64,000 nucleotides of DNA from Geomonas paludis (GTDB lineage Bacteria > Desulfobacterota > Desulfuromonadia > Geobacterales > Geobacteraceae): assembly GCF_014193585.1 (NCBI RefSeq), contig NZ_BLXY01000002.1, forward strand, positions 868,001 through 932,000, in the 5' to 3' direction. The number at the start of each line of letters is the position of its first letter. Positions within the stretch are counted from its first letter, which is position 1. The notes under the pieces were generated by a model. It worked only from the letters and a program-made list of their open reading frames with translations, did not search any database and was not told the DNA's origin. The translations under genes were made by a program, and so were the position numbers. Below are positions 15,721 to 25,468 of this stretch, one piece after another.

Positions 15721-16350
15721 TCAAACGGCGAGCCGGTCGGGGAGTCTCCCGCCGCGCTGCTCTTTCATGGTGCGCACCCTCTTGGTCAGGGCCGGCACGA
15801 TCTCGAACACGTCACCCACGATGCCGTAGGTGGCGACCTGGAAGATGGGGGCCTCGGGGTCGCGGTTGATGGCGATGACGACGTCGGAGTCCTGCATGCC
15901 GACCAGGTGCTGGATGGCGCCGGAGATGCCGCAGGCGATGTAGATCTTTGGGCGCACCGTCTTGCCGGTCTGCCCGACCTGGCGGCTGTGCGGCATCCAC
16001 CCGGCATCGACGGCGCTCCTGGAGGCGCCGACCACGCCGCCCAGTTCCGCGGCGAGCTCGTGCAGCATGGCGAAGTTCTCCTTCCCCATCAGGCCGCGCC
16101 CCCCCGAGACGATGATCTCGGCCCCGGCGATATCGATGTCCTTGCCCCCCTTGTCGCTGATCGACTCGATCACCTTGGCGAGCACGTCCTCCTCGCGCAG
16201 GCCGTACTCCTCGTTGACCACGACGCCGGTCCGCCCCGGGAGCCGTTCCGGCATGGCCATCACGTGGGGACGCACCGTCGCCATCTGGGGGCGGAAGCGG
16301 TCGCACATGATGGTGGCCATGATGTTGCCGCCGAAGGCCGGGCGTCCAAT
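15721..16350 (-). pseudogene. EtfA C-terminal fragment (ferredoxin-type EtfA remnant)
   Basis: From the junction near 16350 the frame matches the last ~210 residues of the ferredoxin-containing EtfA at 50287-51630, beginning at [15 protein letters not shown] and running through the FAD domain ([29 protein letters not shown]). The N-terminal ferredoxin domain and first Rossmann half are absent. The internal ATG at 16320 could start a 199-residue product, but it would lack the EtfB interface. No matching etfB is upstream; methyltransferase sequence is joined instead. Confidence 0.8.
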
Positions 16351-16583
16351 CTGCCGCCCGCCAACTCGTCCACGTCGAGAACACCGGCGAGCTTCCTCGC
16401 GCTGGCCATCTTCATGATACGGGCCACCTGCACCGGAAGGTCCGCCGCGTACACCCTGAAACCGGCTTCCGCCATGAAGGCGGAGTTACGCAGGGTGCCT
16501 GCACCGTAATCGAGGACCGAGCGCACCTCTTTCTTCCTGAAAAACTCCAGATATTTGCTGACACTCAGTGCTGCTGTCGCCAT
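16350..16583 (-). pseudogene. N-terminal fragment of a SAM-dependent methyltransferase
   Basis: Starting at ATG 16583, preceded by AGGAG at proper spacing, about 78 codons resemble the start of a class I methyltransferase: a lead helix ALSVSKYLEFFRKK and then SAM motif [21 protein letters not shown] (E/D-x-G-x-G variant), followed by the motif II strand FRVYAADLP. The match ends at the junction with the etfA fragment near 16350, and the frame then reads out-of-frame etfA DNA. The remaining two thirds of the gene are missing. Confidence 0.65.
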
Positions 16584-16599
16584 ATATGCTCCTGATACG

Positions 16600-16916
16600 G
16601 CGGCGAAGGCGGTGTGCCGCTCGGACCAGAAGGGGCGCCAGTCGTCGGAATCGTAGCGCGGGTCGATGTTGGGCGCGACCGCCCTCCCCCCGTGGCGCTC
16701 GACGAAACGGATCAGGGAACGTCGCACCACGTTAAGGAACTTCGAGCCGTTCCATTTCCCGGACGAGAACTCGATGGCCGAGTAGCGCTGATCTTTCGTG
16801 TAGTGGTCGGTAATGTGCCCGGTGAAGGGGAGAAAGACGCTGATCACGGAACGAGCGCCCGGGAGCCATTCCTGCGGCAGGCGGCGTCGCTGTAGGAGAG
16901 CCCGAGATTCCGTCAC
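16600..16916 (-). pseudogene. Fragment of a QueG-like Fe-S protein
   Basis: From ~16916 the translation WLPGARSVISVFLPF, SSGKWNGSKFLN, RFVERHGGRAVAPNI and WSERHTAFAA follows epoxyqueuosine-reductase-like proteins up to the point where the family continues G-x-G-T-F-G-L. The sequence then changes abruptly into the leader of the methyltransferase fragment (~16600). The [4Fe-4S] cysteine motifs of the family lie beyond the break and are absent. The expected N-terminus is also poorly preserved (GTG start, related residues in another frame upstream). Confidence 0.55.
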
Positions 16917-17074
16917 TGGTTGCCAAAGCCACTCTCAACCCCATACTGCACCTCCGACTGTTTTTGTAGTTCCCCAAAGCGTCCCCCTCCCAGCCTCCCC
17001 CCTCCGGGGGGAGGGGCGTAGACACCTGCCCAAGCGTCTTCTTTGAGGGGGCGCGGATACGTGCCCAAGGCAGA

Positions 17075-17387: not shown

Positions 17388-18458
17388 CTAGATCTGGTAA
17401 TCCTCAACGAAGACGCGCATCTTGCGCGGCCTTGCGTAGACCTGTTCCCCTACCTGCAACTGAAGCCGGTCCGCCTCGTCGCGCGGCAGCTCCGCCTCGA
17501 TGGTCCGGTCACTGCCGGAAAGAACCAAGTCGACGCGCACAAGAGGACCGACAGAGAGGAGGTAGCGGACCTCTGCCTTGATGGCACCGGAACCGTTGCC
17601 GTCCCGCTCGATGGCGATGTCGTGCGAACGGACATAGCCGACGGCGGGGGCATCCTGCGCCGAGGCGTTCTCCGGCGAGGACAGGTCGAGACCCGCCATC
17701 TGCGCGGTCCCCTCGTGTACCCTGCCATGGAACAGATTGACGCTGCCGAGGAAGTCGTAGACGAACGGGGTAGCCGGGCGGTCGTACACCTCGGACGGCG
17801 TCCCTTCCTGCTCGATGCGCCCCTCGTTCATGACCACGATCCGGTCGGCCACCTCGAGCGCCTCCTCCTGGTCGTGGGTCACGAAGACACTGGTGACGTG
17901 GATCTCGTCGTGCAGGCGTCGCAGCCACCGGCGCAGTTCCAGCCTCACCTTGGCATCCAGCGCCCCGAAAGGCTCGTCCAGCAAGAGCACCTGCGGCTCG
18001 ACGGCCAGGGCCCGGGCCAGCGCCACGCGCTGCCGCTGCCCGCCGGAGAGTTGCGCCGGGTAGCGGTCGGCCAGGTTTTCCAACTGGATCAGCTTGAGCA
18101 GGTTGTGCACCTTGTCCCGGATCTCCTGTTTGCTGGGGCGGCTCTTCTTGGGCTTGACGGTGAGGCCGAAGGCGATGTTATCGAAAACGGTCATGTGCCG
18201 GAACAGGGCGTAGTGCTGGAACACGAACCCCACCTGGCGTTCCTGGACCTGACGCTTGGTGGCCTCCTCGCCATCGAAAAGGATTCTGCCGCTGTCAGGG
18301 CTCTCCAACCCGGCGATGATGCGCAACAGCGACGTCTTTCCCGAGCCGGAGGGGCCGAGGAGTGCCACCAGTTCCCCCGAGGGAACCTTGAGACTCACAT
18401 CCTTCAAGGCGGTAAAGGTGCCAAACGACTTGCTTACGGCTTGGATTTCGATGCTCAT
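17388..18458 (-). CDS. cysA: Sulfate/thiosulfate ABC transporter ATP-binding protein
   Basis: 356 aa. Walker [10 protein letters not shown] (~35-43), Q-loop QHYALF, signature [15 protein letters not shown] (~137), Walker [13 protein letters not shown] and switch H (THDQEEA) are all present. A C-terminal TOBE-like regulatory domain (~235-356) is typical of CysA and other CUT1-like ATPases. It energises the CysTW channel. It is the last gene of cysT-cysW-cysA on the minus strand (4 bp after cysW). Molybdate transporters are similar, but the neighbouring CysT/CysW and Sbp sequences point to sulfate. Confidence 0.9.
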
Positions 18459-18462
18459 GGGG

Positions 18463-19338
18463 TTACCTTTCTGTCTCTGCTGCTGATATCGTCTGCTGCA
18501 TCTTCCATTCGGACACGGTCTTGACCGCCAAGGTCACCAGGGCCAGCAGCGCCAGGAGTGATGCCACCGCGAAGGCCGCTGCGTAGCTGTATTCGTTGTA
18601 GAGAATCTCGACCTGGAGCGGGATCGTGTTGGTGGAGCCACGCACGTGGCCGGAAACGACCGATACCGCGCCGAATTCCCCCATGGCCCTCGCGTTGCAG
18701 AGGATGACGCCGTACAGGATGCCCCACTTGATGTTGGGGAAGGTCACCCGCAGAAAGGTCTGCAGGCCGTTGGCCCCAAGGGTGAGCGCCGCTTCCTCCT
18801 CCTCGCGCCCCTGCGATTCCATGAGCGGGATCAACTCCCGCGCGATGAACGGGAAGGTGACGAAGATGGTGGCGAGGATGATGCCCGGGACCGCGAAGAT
18901 GATCTTGATGTCGTGCTCCTGCAGCCAGGGGCCGAGCCACCCTTGCAGGCCGAAGATCAGCACGTAGATGAGGCCGGAGACCACCGGCGAGACCGAGAAC
19001 GGCAGGTCGATCAGCGTGATGAGGAAGCTCTTGCCGGGGAAGCTGAACTTGGCGATGGCCCAGGCCGCAACGATGCCGAAGAAGAGGTTCAGGGGCACGC
19101 ACACCGCGGCGGTGATCAGCGTGAGCCGGATGGCCGAGATCGTGTCCGGCTCCTTGAGTGCAGCCAGGTAGGCCTCCCATCCCTTTTCCAGCGCCTGCGC
19201 GAAGACCGCAGCCAGCGGCAGCACCAGGAACAGCGCCAGGAAGGCCAGGGCAACCGAAATCAGCAGCCAGCGCACCCAGGCCGGCTCCGTCACCGTCGCC
19301 CCTTTCCTCTCCTTTTTGTGAAGACCCTTACCAACCAT
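18463..19338 (-). CDS. cysW: Sulfate ABC transporter permease CysW
   Basis: 291 aa with about six membrane helices and the permease EAA loop [25 protein letters not shown] that docks on CysA. Segments such as [15 protein letters not shown] and [15 protein letters not shown] are characteristic of CysW. A GGGAGGGA ribosome site precedes the ATG. It lies 29 bp after cysT and 4 bp before cysA in the same operon. Confidence 0.9.
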
Positions 19339-19367: not shown

Positions 19368-20240
19368 TTATTCCGCAAAGCGCCTGCTCCACTTCTGCAA
19401 CAGGTTGATGCAGAGCAGCATGAAGAAGGAAACCACAAGCATGACGGTGGCGATGGCGGTCGCGCCGGCGTAATCGTACTGTTCCAGCTTGGTGATGATG
19501 AGCAGCGGCGTGATCTCGGAGACCATCGGCATGTTGCCGGCGATGAAGATGATTGAGCCGTACTCGCCGACCGCACGGGCGAAGGAAAGGGCAAAGCCGG
19601 TGAGAATGGCGGGGAGCATGGTCGGGAGCAGCACCCTGCGGAAGGTCTGCCAGCGGTTGGCACCGAGGCAGGAGGCAGCCTCCTCGATCTCCTGGTCCAA
19701 CTCTTCCAGCACCGGTTGGACCGTGCGCACCACGAAGGGGAGGCCGATGAAGACCATGGCGACGGCAATGCCGAGGGGGGTGAAGGCGACCTTGATGCCG
19801 CGCGGCTCCAGGTAGCGCCCCAGCCAGCCGTTTTGCGAGTAGATGCTGGCCAGCGTGATACCGGCGACGGCGGTGGGGAGGGCGAACGGGAGATCCACCA
19901 GGGCGTCAATCAGCTTCTTGCCCGGGAAGCGGTAGCGCACCAGCACCCAGGCCACCAGCACGCCGAAGAAGCCGTTGATGACGGCGGCGGCAAGCGAGGC
20001 GCCGAAGGTAACGCGATAGGAAGCCAGCACCCGGGGCGCGGTAACCGCAGCGACGAAGTCGTCCCACGTGAGGGTGGCGGTCTTGAAAAAGAGCGCCGAG
20101 AGGGGGATGAGCACGATCAGGCTCAGATAGAAGATGGTGTAACCGAGCGCCGGGGTAAAGCCCGGTAAGACGTTGTTCTTTGCTCTCCCCCCAGCCATAC
20201 CCCCCCCGTTCGATCCGCAACCAGCGGCTTTAATTCCCAT
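19368..20240 (-). CDS. cysT: Sulfate ABC transporter permease CysT
   Basis: 290 aa, about six membrane helices, with the EAA loop [26 protein letters not shown] and [18 protein letters not shown], typical of CysT (CysU). It pairs with CysW as the heterodimeric channel. The first ATG at 20240 has no clear ribosome site; an ATG at 20198 is an alternative that would remove 14 Gly-rich residues. It is the first gene of cysTWA, downstream of a candidate promoter and sulfur-regulon box. Confidence 0.9.
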
Positions 20241-20368: not shown

Positions 20369-21439
20369 TCAGAGTTGGAGTGGTGGACGTCCGTAACTCC
20401 GCGCCGCTGCTACCAACGCGTCTATATTGGCGGGTGGTGTGTCGATGGGGAGGCCGCAGCCAAGCCCGAGGATGTATCCCTTCGGATTGTCCCACGCCTT
20501 GGCGATACACTCCCTCGCATTGGTGAGGACATCGTCGGGAGTGCCGAGGAACATGGTCGCGGTGGGGCGTATGTTGCCCAGAAGCGCCACCCTGTCCCCC
20601 ACCTCCGCCTTCGCGTCGGCCAGATCGACCACGTCGTCGAGGCTCAGCACCGATGCGCCGGTGTCCGCCATCTCGGACCAGATCCTGGTCGTGTTGCCGC
20701 AGATGTGAAGGGAAGGAGCCGCGCCGCTCTCCGCCTTGATGGCGGCGCAGACCTCCTTCAGGTAGGGGAGCGCGAACGCCGTGAACAGTGTGGGCGAGAT
20801 CATGGTCCCGGAGGCGGTCGGGTCGGCGAGGCCGATCCTGGCGCCGCGCTCGAGGGCCGCCCTGGCGAAGCGGATGATACTCTCGGTCGAGTGCCGCAGC
20901 AGGCGGTGGGCGAAGGCCGGGTTCCTGCGCAGGTCGCGGAGAAACTTTTCAGTGCCGCGGATGCCGGCCGCCGTGGTGAAGGGTCCCGCGCAGGTCATGC
21001 CGAGGGGAACCTCATCGCCGATTTCCTTGAGCACCTGGGTCGCCGCGTCGAGAAACAGCGGCAGGCGGCCGTCCTTCTCGGGGTCCGGCACCTTCAGGGA
21101 ATCCAGCACCGACTCGTGCGTCACCACGCTCTCGGCGATATAGGGGGTGCTGTCGGGAAAGGCGACCTTGCTCCCGATCGCCTCGGCGACGCCGGTGAGT
21201 CCCGGACCGGTGTTGACGTTGTCGGTGCCGTACCTGCGCCAGGCCGCGATCTGGCCGCGGGCCAGGAGGTCGGCCGAGTTGTTGTAGTCGCCGACGCTCA
21301 CGCCGATGACGCGCGCCGCGTGGTCGCTGATCAGGAGGTTCACCGGGATGCGATCGTACGGCTTCCCGTTAAGGGCCGCAATGGTCCTCTCCCTGGAGGA
21401 CATCCATTCCTGCACCGGCTGCGCTACCGCCTCTTTCAT
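20369..21439 (-). CDS. UroD/MtaA-family corrinoid-type methyltransferase
   Basis: 356 aa of the uroporphyrinogen decarboxylase superfamily, in the methyltransferase branch rather than HemE. It has the zinc site H245-x-C247 in LHICGNT and C328 in GLGCGLPID, the pattern that binds a thiol substrate in MtaA/MtbA. Such enzymes move methyl groups between a corrinoid and a thiol. The ATG at 21439 overlaps the stop of the NifB-like gene, so the two are co-translated. The adjacent sulfate transport genes suggest work on a methylated sulfur compound; that is inference. Confidence 0.75.
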   Translation of the reverse strand: MKEAVAQPVQEWMSSRERTIAALNGKPYDRIPVNLLISDHAARVIGVSVGDYNNSADLLARGQIAAWRRYGTDNVNTGPGLTGVAEAIGSKVAFPDSTPYIAESVVTHESVLDSLKVPDPEKDGRLPLFLDAATQVLKEIGDEVPLGMTCAGPFTTAAGIRGTEKFLRDLRRNPAFAHRLLRHSTESIIRFARAALERGARIGLADPTASGTMISPTLFTAFALPYLKEVCAAIKAESGAAPSLHICGNTTRIWSEMADTGASVLSLDDVVDLADAKAEVGDRVALLGNIRPTATMFLGTPDDVLTNARECIAKAWDNPKGYILGLGCGLPIDTPPANIDALVAAARSYGRPPLQL

Positions 21440-22284
21440 GATTGCGGGCTCCTTGCACAGCCACCGATCAGGCCGACCGCGTCGGCGCGGCACTGCTGGC
21501 AGCCGCGGAACTGTGCGATGGTGGCTTCGTTGGCAGAGCGGACCTGTTCCAGGTGCTCCGGGGTCGGCCGGGGGACGTGGGCGAGATTCGCCTGTGGGAT
21601 GATGGGCATCACGTTCATGACAAAAGCCCCCGCCTCGCTCGCCTTCTGTGCGACAAGCGGGATCTGCTCCTCGTTGATTCCCGGGATGAGCACCGTGTTC
21701 ACCTTGACCACCATGCCGCGCTGCGCGGCAACGCGCACCCCCTCGAACTGGTTGCGGATCAGGGTCTCCGCTCCCTCGGCGCCACGCAGGACGCGGCCGC
21801 GATACCGGACCTCCCGGTAGATCCGCCCCCCCACCTCCGGGTCTGCGGCGTTGATGGTGACGGTGAGACTGTGCAGGTTGACGCCGGAGAGGTGGTCGAT
21901 CCGGTCGGGGAGCGCCAGCCCGTTCGTGCTCAGACAGAAGAGCAGGTCCGGGAATTCCCGCTGCACCAGTGTGAACGTCTCGAAGGTTTCTGCGTTGGCC
22001 AGGGGATCCCCCGGCCCGGCAATGCCGATGACCCTGATCAGCGAGCCGCACGTGGCGCCGGCCATGACGCCGCGCACCCGCTCCAGCGCCTCAGGCGGCG
22101 TCAGGAGCCTGCTGGTCACGCCGGGGCGCGACTCGTTGGTGCAGTCGTGCCTTCTGTCGCAATAGCCGCACGTGATGTTGCAGCGCGGCGCCACGGCGAG
22201 GTGGATGCGCCCGTTCCTGTGCCGGTCCCCGCCGAAGCACGGATGCCCGTGCAGGAACTTGTCCCTCGTGCATGAAGTCGCCAT
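21436..22284 (-). CDS. NifB-like radical SAM protein
   Basis: About 282 aa from the ATG at 22284 (ribosome site GGAGGAGG). It has HPCFGG near the N-terminus, then GRIHLAVAPRCN, the radical SAM cluster C35-x3-C39-x2-C42, and the NifB-type C-terminus RGCQQCRADAVGLIGG. It lacks the C-terminal NifX-like domain of many diazotroph NifBs. NifB builds the 8Fe carbide core for nitrogenase cofactors; related proteins serve nitrogenase-like enzymes. No nitrogenase structural genes are in the window. It is coupled to the downstream methyltransferase. Confidence 0.85.
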   Translation of the reverse strand: MATSCTRDKFLHGHPCFGGDRHRNGRIHLAVAPRCNITCGYCDRRHDCTNESRPGVTSRLLTPPEALERVRGVMAGATCGSLIRVIGIAGPGDPLANAETFETFTLVQREFPDLLFCLSTNGLALPDRIDHLSGVNLHSLTVTINAADPEVGGRIYREVRYRGRVLRGAEGAETLIRNQFEGVRVAAQRGMVVKVNTVLIPGINEEQIPLVAQKASEAGAFVMNVMPIIPQANLAHVPRPTPEHLEQVRSANEATIAQFRGCQQCRADAVGLIGGCARSPQS

Positions 22285-22340
22285 GCCTCCTCCCCTCCCC
22301 ACTCCGTCCGCTCTAAATGCTGGCACCGCTGCTTCTTACC

Positions 22341-22448
22341 TCGCCGGCCGGAGGCGGCTAGGGCGGCACTGATGTTGGAGGTGGTGGTCGATTTGCCGAT
22401 CCCCCCCTTGCCGTAGATGGCGATGGTTTTCACTTTTTTGCCGGACAT
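22341..22448 (-). pseudogene. NifH N-terminal remnant (36 codons)
   Basis: From ATG 22448 (purine-rich AAAGGAG upstream) the frame encodes a textbook NifH start: KTIAIYGKGGIGKSTTTSNI with the P-loop, then ISAALAASGRR. NifH would continue with V-L-Q/H-V-G-C-D-P-K, but the sequence breaks into unrelated residues after position 36. The NifB-like start follows about 60 bp later. The other ~240 residues, including both cluster cysteines, are absent, so an internal deletion removed most of this gene and possibly others. Confidence 0.75.
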
Positions 22449-22525
22449 GTCGTTTGCTCCTTTGCTTGTTGATTTGGCCCCAAGGCCGCAGCGCCGTTGC
22501 GCTGTCGTGGTTGAAAAAAGTCCTG

Positions 22526-23353
22526 TCAGATGCCCAGTCCGCCGTTCACCACGCCGGTCTCGAGCTCGGCGATGATGCTCCCCCACTTCCCCGCCCAGCG
22601 TTGCATGGCGTGGTCGTCCAGTGCCTTGGGACGGCGCAGCGCGCCCCCCTCGGAGAGGTTCCGCGCCAGTTTCCGGTAGGCGTAGGTGACGTGGGAGAAG
22701 GGTGCGGACTCCAGGAGTGTCTGGCCGTAGAAGTCGCTCACCGAGACCATGATGGAGTGCGGGATGGTGGCCAGCACCGAGGTCCCGGTCTGCGCTGCGA
22801 AGTCGGATACGATCGCCTCCTGCAGCGGCCCGGACAGGTTGTTGGCGACCACCCCTCCCAGTCGCGTGTTGGCCGCGGCGATGGTGTTGAGCCAGGCAAA
22901 GAGCCCGTTCACCACCTGCAGGGAGCAGCGGTCGGCGGAAGTCACCGCCACGAGGCCCACCACCCCGTCGACTCCTGCCGGCAGACGCACATCCCCGCCG
23001 GATTCCCAGGTGAAGTCGTGCAGCACGTACTCCGGCTGGAATGACTCGACCAGGGGATGGGCAAGAAGCGCCTTCTCCAGCTCTTCCCTGCGTGCCACGG
23101 CCGCTCCGGCCTCGAGGCATAGGGTGCCGCGGTAGCCGCGCGAGTAGAGGGGGACATCCTCGCCGTGCAGCCACCCCGGCAACGCCTCCATCTCATTGCC
23201 GCCGCTCAAGGTACCGGCAGAACTGCGGTGGCTGTCGTAACCGACCAGTAGGACGCGCCTACCCGCCTCGGCCAGGGCTCCGCCGAGGTTCGCCGCCACT
23301 GTCGACTTCCCCGTGCCGCTTTTCCCCGCGATGACAATGTGCCGTCCGGCCAT
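22526..23353 (-). CDS. NifH-like ATPase lacking the [4Fe-4S] cysteines
   Basis: 275 aa from ATG 23353 (AAAGGAGG at good spacing; the longer frame to 23422 includes the upstream hairpin and is rejected). It has the P-loop GKSGTGKST (10-18), VLLVGYDSHRSS in place of VGCDPKADST, and a NifH-like C-terminal half (VTSADRCSLQVV, GGVVANNLSGP, FYGQTLLESAP). Only two cysteines remain (79 and 143), neither at the NifH cluster positions: the GCAGRG and VVCGGF segments are replaced by AAVARRE and ESGGDVRLP. A maturation or regulatory ATPase (CooC-like role) is more likely than an electron donor. Confidence 0.75.
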   Translation of the reverse strand: MAGRHIVIAGKSGTGKSTVAANLGGALAEAGRRVLLVGYDSHRSSAGTLSGGNEMEALPGWLHGEDVPLYSRGYRGTLCLEAGAAVARREELEKALLAHPLVESFQPEYVLHDFTWESGGDVRLPAGVDGVVGLVAVTSADRCSLQVVNGLFAWLNTIAAANTRLGGVVANNLSGPLQEAIVSDFAAQTGTSVLATIPHSIMVSVSDFYGQTLLESAPFSHVTYAYRKLARNLSEGGALRRPKALDDHAMQRWAGKWGSIIAELETGVVNGGLGI

Positions 23354-23405
23354 CTGTTCCTCCTTTGCGTTTCGTCCCCGTGCGGCCGGGTTGATGCTAT
23401 GCAAA

Positions 23406-23466
23406 CAAAAAAGGCCAGGCATAACCGTGCATCCGGTTAAAGCCTGGCCTCCAGTTTATCTGGTCA
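23406..23466 (-). terminator. Tandem-hairpin terminator/leader motif, copy B
   Basis: On the minus strand: CCAG-ataaa-CTGG hairpin, A, then stem GGCCAGGC/GCCTGGCC with an inner CCG/CGG pairing, then six Ts. It lies ~50 bp after the DUF2292 gene and ~50 bp before the NifH-like start. It could therefore end the sbp transcript, or attenuate transcription into the NifH-like gene. Copy A is at 17202-17266. Confidence 0.7.
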
Positions 23467-23518
23467 GCTGCAGGTGGTTTTCTCGTTGTTCTTCTCTACT
23501 ACTCTGGTTGTTCTTTCG

Positions 23519-23686
23519 CTATTGGATCCTGATCTTCTCGTTCTTGTCGAGTTGGATCACTTTCCCGTCCTGGACCACGAGGGTAACGGTGCCGTAACGA
23601 AGGTCCCGGAGCGCCAGGCGGATCCTTTGCTCGAGGTCTCTGCTCAGCTTGCCAGACTGTTCCGATGTCGTCTCCATGCTCCCCAT
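23519..23686 (-). CDS. DUF2292 (YezD-like) small protein
   Basis: 55 aa if started at 23686, 52 aa from the second ATG at 23677, which is better spaced from AGGAGG. The core IRLALRDLRYGTVTLVVQDGK followed by VIQLDK matches the YezD/DUF2292 family, whose members often sit in sulfur-assimilation operons. The biochemical role is unknown. It lies 33 bp downstream of sbp on the same strand and was too short for a standard ORF cut-off. Confidence 0.8.
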   Translation of the reverse strand: MGSMETTSEQSGKLSRDLEQRIRLALRDLRYGTVTLVVQDGKVIQLDKNEKIRIQ

Positions 23687-23719
23687 GACCTCCTTTGATA
23701 CGGTGCCTCGCGCGCCGCT

Positions 23720-24712
23720 TTATTTCACGCCGTAGATCTGGTCGAACATCCCGCCGTCGGTGAAGTGGGTCTTCTGCGCCTTGCGCCAGCCGCCGAAGGT
23801 GTCGTCGATGGTAACGAGCTTCACCTTGGGGAACACCTTGGCGTACTTGGCGGCCACCTTTTTGTCGCGCGGACGGTAGTAGTGCTTGGCCGCGATCTCC
23901 TGGCCCTCAGGCGAGTAGAGGTACTTCAGGTACTCCTCGGCGAGCTTCCTGGTTCCCTTCTTGTCGACCACCTTGTCCACCACGGCGACCGGCGGCTCGG
24001 CCAGGATGCTCAAGGACGGCACCACGATCTCGAACTTGTCCTTGCCCAGTTCGTTGACGGCGAGGAACGCCTCGTTCTCCCAGGCGAGCAGCACGTCGCC
24101 CTGGCCGCGCTGCACGAAGGTCGTGGTGGCGCCGCGGGCGCCGGAATCGAGCACCGGTACGTGCTTGAAGAGTTCGGAAACGAACTGCTTGGCCTTCGCC
24201 TCGTTGCCCCCCTTCTGCTTCAGGGCGTAGGCCCAGGCCGCCAGGTAGTTCCAGCGGGCGCCACCGGAGGTCTTCGGGTTCGGCGTGATGACGGCAACGC
24301 CCGGCTTCACCAGGTCGTTCCAGTCCTTGATCTTCTTGGGGTTACCCTTGCGCACCAGGAAGACTATGGTCGAGGTATAGGGAGAACTGTTGTTGGGCAG
24401 CCTCTTCTGCCACTCGGCCGGAAGGAGCTTCGCCTTGTCGCTGATCTCGTCGATGTCATAGGCCAGCGCCAGGGTGACCACGTCGGCCTCGAGACCGTCG
24501 ATCACCGCCCTTGCCTGCTTGCCGGAACCGCCGTGGGACTGCTTGAAGGTGACATTGGAGTGCCCTTTCTTGGCAAAGGCCTTGTTGAAGTCCTGGTACA
24601 GCTCGCGGGTCGGATCGTACGAGACGTTGAGGAACTCCTGTGCCGCAAAGGCGCTGAGGGGCAGTGCTGCGGTGAGCAGTGTGACAAAAGCGGTGCGGAT
24701 CTGTCTCTTCAT
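23720..24712 (-). CDS. sbp: Periplasmic sulfate-binding protein
   Basis: 330 aa. It has a signal peptide of about 23 residues ([21 protein letters not shown]). Family segments include [45 protein letters not shown] (the sulfate-binding loop), [16 protein letters not shown] and the C-terminal YYRPRD. It delivers sulfate or thiosulfate to CysTWA, encoded ~3.5 kb downstream on the same strand. Ribosome site AAGGAG precedes the ATG, and a candidate regulator box lies ~26 bp further upstream. Confidence 0.95.
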
Positions 24713-24783: not shown

Positions 24784-25245
24784 TTAGATACAAAAATCGA
24801 TGACGTTCTTTTCAGAGAGTTCGGCGTGGTCGACGCGGTTGAGCACATCGGCCAGGGTGGTGTTGTCGAGGATCTGGGCGATCGCGTCGCGTACGTCCTT
24901 CATCACCAGCCGGATGCCGCAGGTGTTCTCGTTGCCGCACTCGGTACACTTCGCGTACGCGGTCTCGCTGACGCAGGGAACCGGCGCCAGGGGACCTTCC
25001 ATGACACGGATGGCCTGCCCCATGGTAATAAGCCTTGGCGAACGGCCCAGGTAGTAGCCGCCCCCCTTCCCTTTCCGGCTCTGCAGGATGCCGCTGTTTT
25101 TCAGGGCCAGCAGGATGGCTTCCAGAAACTTTTTGGGTATATTCTCGTCACGCGCGAGGTCCGCGATCAGGATCGGTCCCTGCTCGTACTGGCGCGCAAG
25201 GTAGATGAGGGCCTTGAGGCCGTATTTGGTTTTCTTCGATATCAT
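24784..25245 (-). CDS. Rrf2-family regulator (CymR/IscR-like) with four cysteines
   Basis: 153 aa. The N-terminal winged helix is typical of Rrf2 (KTKYGLKALIYLA, IPKKFLEAILLALKNSGIL, then the wing RKGKGGGYYLG). The effector region has C91, C100, C103 and C109 (PCVSETAYAKCTECGNENTC), which could bind an Fe-S cluster as in IscR; CymR, the cysteine-metabolism regulator, lacks them. It lies directly upstream of sbp on the same strand, and shared boxes precede cysT, sbp and itself, so it probably controls this sulfur block. Confidence 0.85.
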   Translation of the reverse strand: MISKKTKYGLKALIYLARQYEQGPILIADLARDENIPKKFLEAILLALKNSGILQSRKGKGGGYYLGRSPRLITMGQAIRVMEGPLAPVPCVSETAYAKCTECGNENTCGIRLVMKDVRDAIAQILDNTTLADVLNRVDHAELSEKNVIDFCI

Positions 25246-25468
25246 CTATTACCCTGTCGTTTTTGTAGACTTGTGTATAACCCCTGCGTCACTTTCTGTC
25301 AACATTTTTTTGGAACTTTCGACGCCGCGGCAGCATCAGGCAGAAATCATTCAGTTTTTTTCAGCAGTCATTCATCCACTCTCTTACGTTGAAACCGGCG
25401 CAAAAACGATGTACAGTCCGGGCCTATGCACTCTCATCCTGCCAGTGGTTCAGTCAAAGGAGTTTCCC

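Follow-up and report, generated by a model that had tools for sequence, protein, structure and literature searches.

We analysed a 64,000-nucleotide stretch of the Geomonas paludis genome (G000:C2:868001-932000; hereafter the window, with positions counted from its first base), in which homologues of nitrogenase genes lie within a sulfate-transport group. The parent assembly is a 5.1-Mb draft in 30 contigs, rated 99.99% complete. G000 denotes the window genome, other G-numbers denote the compared genomes, and L-numbers denote regions taken from compared genomes; the prefix Mar refers to methylthio-alkane reductase (MAR). Between cysTWA and sbp, the minus strand carries genes for an MtaA-type methyltransferase, NifB, a truncated nifH, a NifH paralogue that lacks the ligand cysteines (the cysteine-less NifH) and a DUF2292 protein. 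The features of the locus are as follows.

24784..25245, minus strand: Rrf2-family regulator (CymR/IscR-like), first gene of the group; PF02082 128 bits, TIGR00738 115 bits (above cut-off), CymR model 96 bits (below cut-off).
23720..24712, minus strand: Sbp, sulfate-binding protein; TIGR00971 500.7 bits (cut-off 155.5).
23519..23686, minus strand: DUF2292/OscA-like small protein; PF10055 E 1.7e-17, OscA model 35.6 bits (below cut-off 85).
22526..23353, minus strand: NifH/MarH paralogue without [4Fe-4S] ligands, 275 amino acids (aa), frame intact; PF00142 Fer4_NifH E 1.2e-21, C97 and C132 absent.
22313..22448, minus strand: marH remnant, 136 bp, with its ATG at 22448; BLASTN coordinates and joint letters versus G012.
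21436..22284, minus strand: marB-type NifB (radical S-adenosylmethionine (SAM) protein, CX3CX2C), frame intact; TIGR01290 305 bits (below cut-off 343.65), and NifB tree.
20369..21439, minus strand: UroD-family (MtaA/Mlp-like) methyltransferase; PF01208 E 7.7e-90, PRK06252 and mtaA_cmuA below cut-off.
19368..20240, minus strand: cysT, sulfate permease; TIGR02139 434 bits (above cut-off).
18463..19338, minus strand: cysW, sulfate permease; TIGR02140 413 bits (above cut-off).
17388..18458, minus strand: cysA, sulfate ATP-binding cassette (ABC) ATPase; TIGR00968 410 bits (above cut-off).
16902..16944, minus strand: 5′ end of nifX, ~14 codons, cut by a large deletion; matches G012 L066 up to 16358, where homology ends.
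16600..16883, minus strand: fragment of a 457-aa protein without a Pfam match, encoded near the distal end of the intact cluster; 97% to L085 14799-15082.
16343..16622, minus strand: fragment of a SAM-methyltransferase-like gene located at the distal end of the intact cluster; 89% to L085 15439-15719, Methyltransf_23 in G013.
25243..25302, minus strand: TTGACA box and conserved CTAC..AA..GA..GGGTAA element just upstream of the Rrf2 start; from the comparison of Rrf2 upstream regions.

The initial annotation had placed the genes from the methyltransferase to sbp, in this order and on one strand, at 20369-24712, and matches to Pfam and NCBIfam profiles located all of them on the minus strand. 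The gene calls stood but the extent did not, as a deletion scar (~16340-16945) lies past cysA and the Rrf2 gene (24784-25245) precedes sbp on the same strand. The proposed coupling of nifB to the methyltransferase gene by an overlapping start was borne out, the NifB stop and the methyltransferase ATG sharing four bases. The methyltransferase is MtaA/MtbA/CmuA-like but scores under the NCBIfam cut-offs, and NifB covers positions 10-277 of the 441 in the TIGR01290 profile. The suspected NifH remnant was confirmed, its homology to G012 nifH breaking at 22346/22347, and the cysteine-less NifH-like ATPase is present at 22526-23353.

The closest relative, G012, is 94-98% identical to the window over the locus and has an intact mar cluster. 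Its genes run Rrf2, sbp, cysteine-less NifH, full nifH, NifB, methyltransferase, cysT, cysW and cysA, followed beyond cysA by nifX, cysK, an ABC ATPase, substrate-binding proteins, a permease, NifD-like and NifK-like genes, and then by a methyltransferase, a second UroD-type protein, an RACo-type activase, further transporter genes, the 457-aa protein and the SAM-methyltransferase. The G012 order is presumably the older one. Relative to it, the marH remnant of the window consists of 103 bp of the 5′ end joined out of frame to 33 bp of the 3′ end, with 743 bp gone; BLASTN aligned window position 22346 with L066 9998 and the next base with L066 10742, leaving a two-base overlap. The remnant matches positions 2-30 only of the PF00142 profile. 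Past cysA, the homology to nifX ends at 16902; from 16883 the window again matches G012, there in a fragment located 16.4 kb farther along, after which a further ~0.37 kb was lost. The >16-kb loss includes marDK and the methyl-transfer genes, and the corrinoid protein and activase present in G013 are missing from the window locus. From ~16343 the sequence enters the 3′ part of etfA. Next to the mar cluster fragments, only this 3′ part (flavin adenine dinucleotide domain) is present, at 15721-16320 on the minus strand; the G012 sequence that matches it at 99% falls within an open frame of 454 aa, which sits at C22:361792, ~58 kb past the SAM-methyltransferase gene.

The surmise that the cluster had been partly deleted was therefore correct: marH, marD and marK are all kept in G012, and the window lacks 743 bp of marH and, in a second loss of >16 kb, marDK. 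No NifDK-like pair for this cluster was found in a whole-genome scan with PF00148, in agreement with the reported absence of such subunits; the window genome has four matches, all in one stretch of C11, versus six each in G012, G013, G017, G022 and G023. The idea of an orphan NifDK-like pair hidden elsewhere in the genome was rejected on the same scan. Apart from the cysteine-less protein and the marH stump, the NifH-family matches in the window genome are one full nifH, located on C11, and three short P-loop matches. Because marH is cut and marDK, nifX and the methyl-transfer partners are lost, the window locus can no longer make the reductase. It could be argued that the deletions are assembly artefacts and that the organism has an intact mar cluster, since the assembly is a draft in 30 contigs. 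However, both scars lie inside a 1.02-Mb contig, several joints would have to be explained (the marH hole, nifX to the 457-aa gene, the 457-aa gene to the SAM-methyltransferase gene, and then etfA), and an assembly of this completeness contains no second NifDK-like pair and no full MarH. We therefore consider an artefact very improbable.

A search of 48 family genomes, the window genome included, recovered the same NifB in G012 at 94% identity and in five more members of the genus at 70-88%, and the remaining matches reached 68% at most. The cluster is intact in G012, G013, G017, G022 and G023 (the last three differing in detail), and much of it is present in G006 on C29. The gene order thus recurs in relatives, and the lack of conservation that would have told against the initial annotation was not seen. 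The G013 cluster adds a corrinoid protein, a DUF1847 protein and MetK; this corrinoid protein scores barely above the TIGR02370 cut-off (217.0 versus 215.3), and RACo domains are present in G013. Beside NifH-like genes, small DUF2292 proteins occur repeatedly, at times as two copies in one cluster (L075, L077 and others); a literature search on OscA/DUF2292 brought up mainly papers on other subjects. Several NifDK-like pairs are indicated by the 14 to 22 PF00148 matches per genome in G032, G046, G006, G195 and G188.

To place the window NifB, a tree of 32 NifBs was examined. Together with the six remaining mar-cluster NifBs of the genus, the window NifB formed a group of 7 rows (100/100), in which G012 NifB was its neighbour. 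All 19 nif NifBs fell outside this group and formed one side of a branch at 92/86. The NifB of the genome's own nif system is only 64% identical to the NifB of the locus. This placement apart from the nif NifB is the opposite of the normal nif position named beforehand as the finding that would speak against the initial annotation. The NifB and NifH pieces could nevertheless be ordinary nif accessories displaced from the nitrogen-fixation system of the genome; on C11, the genome carries a nif-type set that includes a separate NifH, a separate NifB and four PF00148 proteins. In addition, mar-cluster NifBs from six other genomes (G006, G029, G030, G032, G034 and G046) form a group of their own (85/77), placed across the 100/100 branch with the nif NifBs. 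Given the position of the window NifB, its low identity to the nif NifB and the MarH-type nifH of G012, a displaced nif origin is scarcely credible; an origin as ordinary nif genes was largely refuted by the NifB tree.

We then asked whether the surviving genes are still under constraint. Between G000 and G012, the ratio of nonsynonymous to synonymous substitution rates (dN/dS) was 0.03-0.05 in cysT, cysW and cysA, 0.13 in the methyltransferase, 0.26 in NifB and 0.12 in the cysteine-less NifH. On the G000 branch, NifB had 6 nonsynonymous (N) and 7 synonymous (S) changes versus 5 and 69 in cysTWA (Fisher p 0.001). The G012 branch of NifB had 3 N and 6 S and did not differ from the G000 branch (p 0.67). 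The excess over cysTWA without a difference between the two branches only suggests that selection on the window NifB is relaxed. In the methyltransferase, 3 N and 14 S changes on the G000 branch did not amount to a significant excess over cysTWA (Fisher p 0.17). That NifB and the methyltransferase are still a working pair in the window genome is quite improbable. Both frames are intact, the methyltransferase has no significant N excess, and a single 243-aa frame with a B12-binding_2 domain lies elsewhere in the genome. Against this stand the N excess in NifB, though it is like that on the G012 branch, the lack of MarDK to take the NifB product, and the loss of the corrinoid protein and activase from the locus. 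We therefore regard the two genes as probable leftovers. Synonymous divergence from G012 (window 21436-23353 versus L066) was 0.06-0.09 in NifB and the cysteine-less NifH and 0.25-0.28 in the adjoining cysTWA, and the NifB/cysteine-less NifH segment looks as if it had recombined between lineages.

The kind of reductase encoded by the intact cluster was assessed by searches of PDB. The nifH-like protein of G012 matched MarH (9FMG) best with 479.6 bits, the best ordinary Fe protein scoring 287.7. The NifD-like and NifK-like proteins of G013 matched MarD (229 bits; next 128) and MarK (291 bits; next 98) best, and three other NifD-like types in the family also had MarD as their best match (241, 185 and 200 bits). 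The suggestion of a methylthio-alkane reductase type was thus supported by MarH of G012 and by MarD and MarK of G013. Three further cysteines, which we take to be P-cluster positions, are kept in the alignment of G013 NifD to MarD. As for the MAR cluster ligands given in passages of the MAR structure paper, MarD Cys270 and His429 (PMC12552129), Cys270 is aligned in the G013 NifD-like protein. Among the components of marBHDK, the window genome has the NifB-type protein and lacks MarD, MarK and a MarH with both ligand cysteines; G012 has such a MarH, and G012 and G013 both have MarD and MarK. These results suggest that the relatives probably scavenge sulfur from methylated sulfur compounds with this cluster.

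Some observations weigh against a MAR in the strict sense. The similarity to MarD is modest, and as MarD is the best match of the relatives' NifD-like proteins at modest scores and none is a close copy, the substrates of their reductases may differ from that of MAR. In G013, the residue expected to correspond to MarD His429 is shifted by one position in the alignment. Binding proteins that resemble SsuA, with scores below the cut-off, adjoin the NifDK-like genes in relatives, and in passages of PMC11423573 the isr locus of Rhodobacter capsulatus sits with ssu and tau transporters. The intact system of the relatives might accordingly be an Isr-like reductase of isethionate or another sulfonate rather than a methylthio-alkane reductase. 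In contrast, methyltransferase clusters accompany mar-like genes in passages of PMC10418091, and the main text of PMC11423573 nowhere uses the word 'methyltransferase'. An Isr-like enzyme is hence a real but minor possibility, and we proceed with a Mar-type reductase as the preferred reading.

The cysteine-less NifH has a distribution of its own. This protein or its kin was found in 25 of 48 family genomes (E <= 1e-20), with both ligand cysteines missing in 18 and kept in 7. Eleven of the 25 have four or fewer PF00148 matches, hence no MarDK by count, and for six of these 11 the position of every match is known; G025 and G035 (three PF00148 matches) are 85% and 90% complete, respectively. In a class-wide search, 70 of 277 genomes gave a match at E <= 1e-30, a figure that includes ordinary NifH types. 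A tree of 64 NifH-type rows was built with the ligand columns excluded, after omission of G032 L075 (N-terminus missing) and the partial second NifH of G006 L079. Forty-two rows from 40 genomes formed one clade (100/99), drawn from 24 of the 25 family genomes with a match and from 16 genomes among 20 further regions picked mainly by score from the class-wide search. The clade branches among rows with canonical Mar-type motifs, and its long branches leave the inner order unsure. By this tree, the cysteine-less paralogue appears to have arisen from a Mar-type Fe protein. Both ligand cysteines are absent from 26 of the 42 rows, one is absent from 3 and both are kept in 13. On the tree, the presence of C97 and of C132 each requires at least 4 changes (losses or regains) and that of K15 at least 6, indicating that the Fe-S ligand cysteines were apparently lost more than once.

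Most members of the clade lie among sulfur genes. Within 8 kb and on the same strand, 38 of the 42 rows have Rrf2, CysK, Sbp or cysT/W; the exceptions are G046 (contig edge), G195 (a 3.5-kb contig), and G188 and G254 (longer stretches). Counted singly within the same distance and on the same strand, the neighbours are DUF2292 (31/42), Rrf2 (28/42), CysK (26/42) and a NifD/K-like gene in only 3/42. An alpha/beta-hydrolase-like gene adjoins the orphan NifH in G002, G019, G024 and G046 (L092, L093, L096 and L077). By PF00148 count, 15 of the 40 clade genomes are without MarDK. G223, which has four matches, was not scored as lacking it because two of them lie together on C30, away from the nif-like ones. 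A search of genome contigs with a profile of the cysteine-less NifH alignment gave at least 80 loci, the best among the matches listed having 28% identity over the length; the listed matches look like general P-loop ATPases, and near relatives may be missing from this search.

Constraint on the cysteine-less NifH was then compared between genomes with and without MarDK. In pairs without MarDK by count, dN/dS was 0.134 (G014-G015), 0.113 (G019-G024) and 0.190 (G239-G240, with one cysteine kept). For comparison, it was 0.141 in a pair with MarDK, 0.031 in real MarH and 0.100 in MetK of G014-G015. Purifying selection on the cysteine-less NifH therefore persists without MarDK, and the idea that the protein lacks any function was rejected on these values. 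The description of the cluster as degenerate thus holds for the wreck of marH and marDK and fails for the cysteine-less NifH, which is not simply wreckage because it is under purifying selection in genomes where no MarDK was found.

Certain residues are kept across the clade: D125 in 42/42 rows, N185 in 42/42, C85 in 41/42 and D39 in 39/42, with R100 in 2/42. Among the 26 rows that lack both cysteines, 23 have E in place of D129; E also stands at this position in the window protein, which keeps the P-loop lysines, S16, D39, D125 and N185; no paper on Asp129 in the Fe protein was found in a literature search. In a search of PDB, MarH was the best match of the cysteine-less NifH (109.9 bits; next 67.8). 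An AlphaFold2 model based on 17 sequences had a mean predicted local distance difference test score of 81.7, with residues 201-219 poorly modelled, and Foldseek placed MarH first (9fmg_D, template modelling score 0.76). As modelled, the fold and part of the nucleotide site remain in the cysteine-less NifH, and the cluster ligands are gone.

Derivation from a Mar-type NifH also suits another role, in which the protein only modulates MarH/MarDK, for instance by serving as a decoy or as one half of a heterodimer, and survives in the window as a relic on its way to loss. In 25 of the 40 clade genomes, the PF00148 matches outnumber those of a nif set or have MarDK among them. This role is rather unlikely, as MarDK is lacking by count in the other 15 genomes and dN/dS without MarDK about equals that with it. 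Instead, the cysteine-less NifH is most likely a nucleotide-binding switch of the sulfur-starvation response that would act on a neighbour such as Rrf2, CysK or the sulfate transporter. According to passages of PMC2940859, the Bacillus subtilis repressor CymR forms a regulatory complex with CysK. Because of this precedent, the CymR-like character of Rrf2 and the frequency of both as neighbours, Rrf2 and CysK are the first candidate partners.

Several points count against the switch role, which rests on synteny, constraint and the kept nucleotide residues. Another residue takes the place of the Walker lysine K15 in 5 of the 13 rows with both cysteines and in 8 of the 26 with neither, and the loss of K15 in part of the clade speaks against ATP hydrolysis as a common function. 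The absence of MarDK in the 15 genomes was scored by count; all match places were seen for 10 of them and only 2-3 for G002, G009, G019, G026 and G035, and the assemblies of G025, G035 and G251 are 85%, 90% and 83% complete, respectively.

Upstream regions of the Rrf2 genes were compared for signs of shared regulation. By eye, the TTGACA box and the CTAC..AA..GA..GGGTAA element were present in some form in 23 of 30 regions, and the Rrf2 start codon is probably misplaced in the other 7. The CTAC..AA..GA..GGGTAA element overlaps a promoter-like stretch and has one strict match in the window genome. Exact inverted repeats common to most of 29 upstream regions were not found; ATCTAT-N7-ATAGAT occurred in 3 of the 29 (G009, G211 and G247).

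The whole explanation, which we consider probable, is that the locus is an Rrf2-linked sulfate-uptake group with a ruined mar cluster, in which the cysteine-less NifH was kept as a switch. A sulfate-uptake gene group, probably under the Rrf2 regulator, would once have carried a mar cluster and a corrinoid methyl-transfer module. The gene content of the intact form is seen in relatives, and the following functions are predicted from it. SsuA-type transporters would import organic sulfur, NifB would make the [Fe8S9C] cluster, and MarH with MarDK would cleave the C-S bond. UroD-family methyltransferases, the corrinoid protein and the RACo-type activase would strip or move the methyl group, and the sulfur would reach CysK. 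In the window genome, NifB and one methyltransferase would survive as leftovers. A paralogue of the Mar-type Fe protein would have joined the sulfur genes and been retained despite the loss of its Fe-S ligands and, in many genomes, the lack of NifDK-like partners. A broader proposal, to which we give somewhat less than even credence, is that a Mar-derived Fe protein family repeatedly dropped its [4Fe-4S] cluster and catalytic partner and became a nucleotide-responsive regulator of sulfur starvation in this bacterium's order; the window would then hold a clear example, preserved by selection beside the remains of its parent enzyme system.

NifH-type proteins are generally viewed as electron donors whose cluster is their purpose. 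If the proposed role is true, the clade shows an Fe protein reused as a switch, with the fold and part of the nucleotide site kept and the ligands lost, and a NifH match in a genome of this kind is not necessarily a sign of nitrogen fixation or of C-S reduction. Through the deletions in the window, sister species that have the mar cluster can be compared with one that has lost it, and the role of the cluster in anaerobic sulfur scavenging and in ethylene or methane release becomes testable. Searches of the open-access PMC literature, covering mostly titles and the openings of abstracts, turned up no account of a NifH paralogue that lacks the cluster ligands or lies among sulfur genes, though one may exist.

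Among known systems, marBHDK of Rhodospirillum rubrum (PDB 9FMG; passages of PMC12552129) resembles the relatives in having NifB, MarH and MarDK in a sulfur gene group. It differs in that the window genome is without MarDK and retains marH only as a stump, and in that the relatives add the cysteine-less NifH, cysTWA, nifX, cysK and a corrinoid methyl-transfer module and have the His429 equivalent one place off. In passages of PMC10418091, MarHDK-like genes are prevalent in or near the non-selenium mlp clusters. The type 1 mlp clusters described there have in common with the relatives UroD-family methyltransferases together with a corrinoid protein and its activase and, in the non-selenium clade, nearby MarHDK-like genes; here, in contrast, these are joined to a sulfate-transport group, and one methyltransferase is left in the window. 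Of the features expected of a type 1 mlp cluster, the corrinoid protein and the activase of Ram/RACE type are missing from the window locus and present in G013. Since the reported association of MarHDK-like genes with mlp clusters makes the link between mar and methyltransferases already known, a separate new system need not be assumed for the methyltransferase, which the initial annotation had taken as a possible sign of a different methyl-sulfur system. The isrBHDK genes of R. capsulatus, in passages of PMC11423573, likewise combine a NifHDK-like enzyme, a radical SAM protein and an Ssu-type transporter in sulfur assimilation. IsrB is reported there to be unlike NifB, whereas the B protein here matches the NifB model; IsrB was set apart by this published description. 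Homologues of nifH in genomes without nifDK are known as pseudo-nifH (passages of PMC8597730) and are a further parallel to the present clade; the words 'Geobacter' and 'cysteine' are absent from the main text of that paper. Compared with the nitrogenase Fe protein and MarH themselves, the cysteine-less NifH has the same fold, P-loop, D125 and N185. It differs in having neither C97 nor C132, in the rarity of R100 in its clade, in the replacement of D129 by E in the window protein, and in the lack, by count, of a NifDK-like partner in 15 of the 40 clade genomes.

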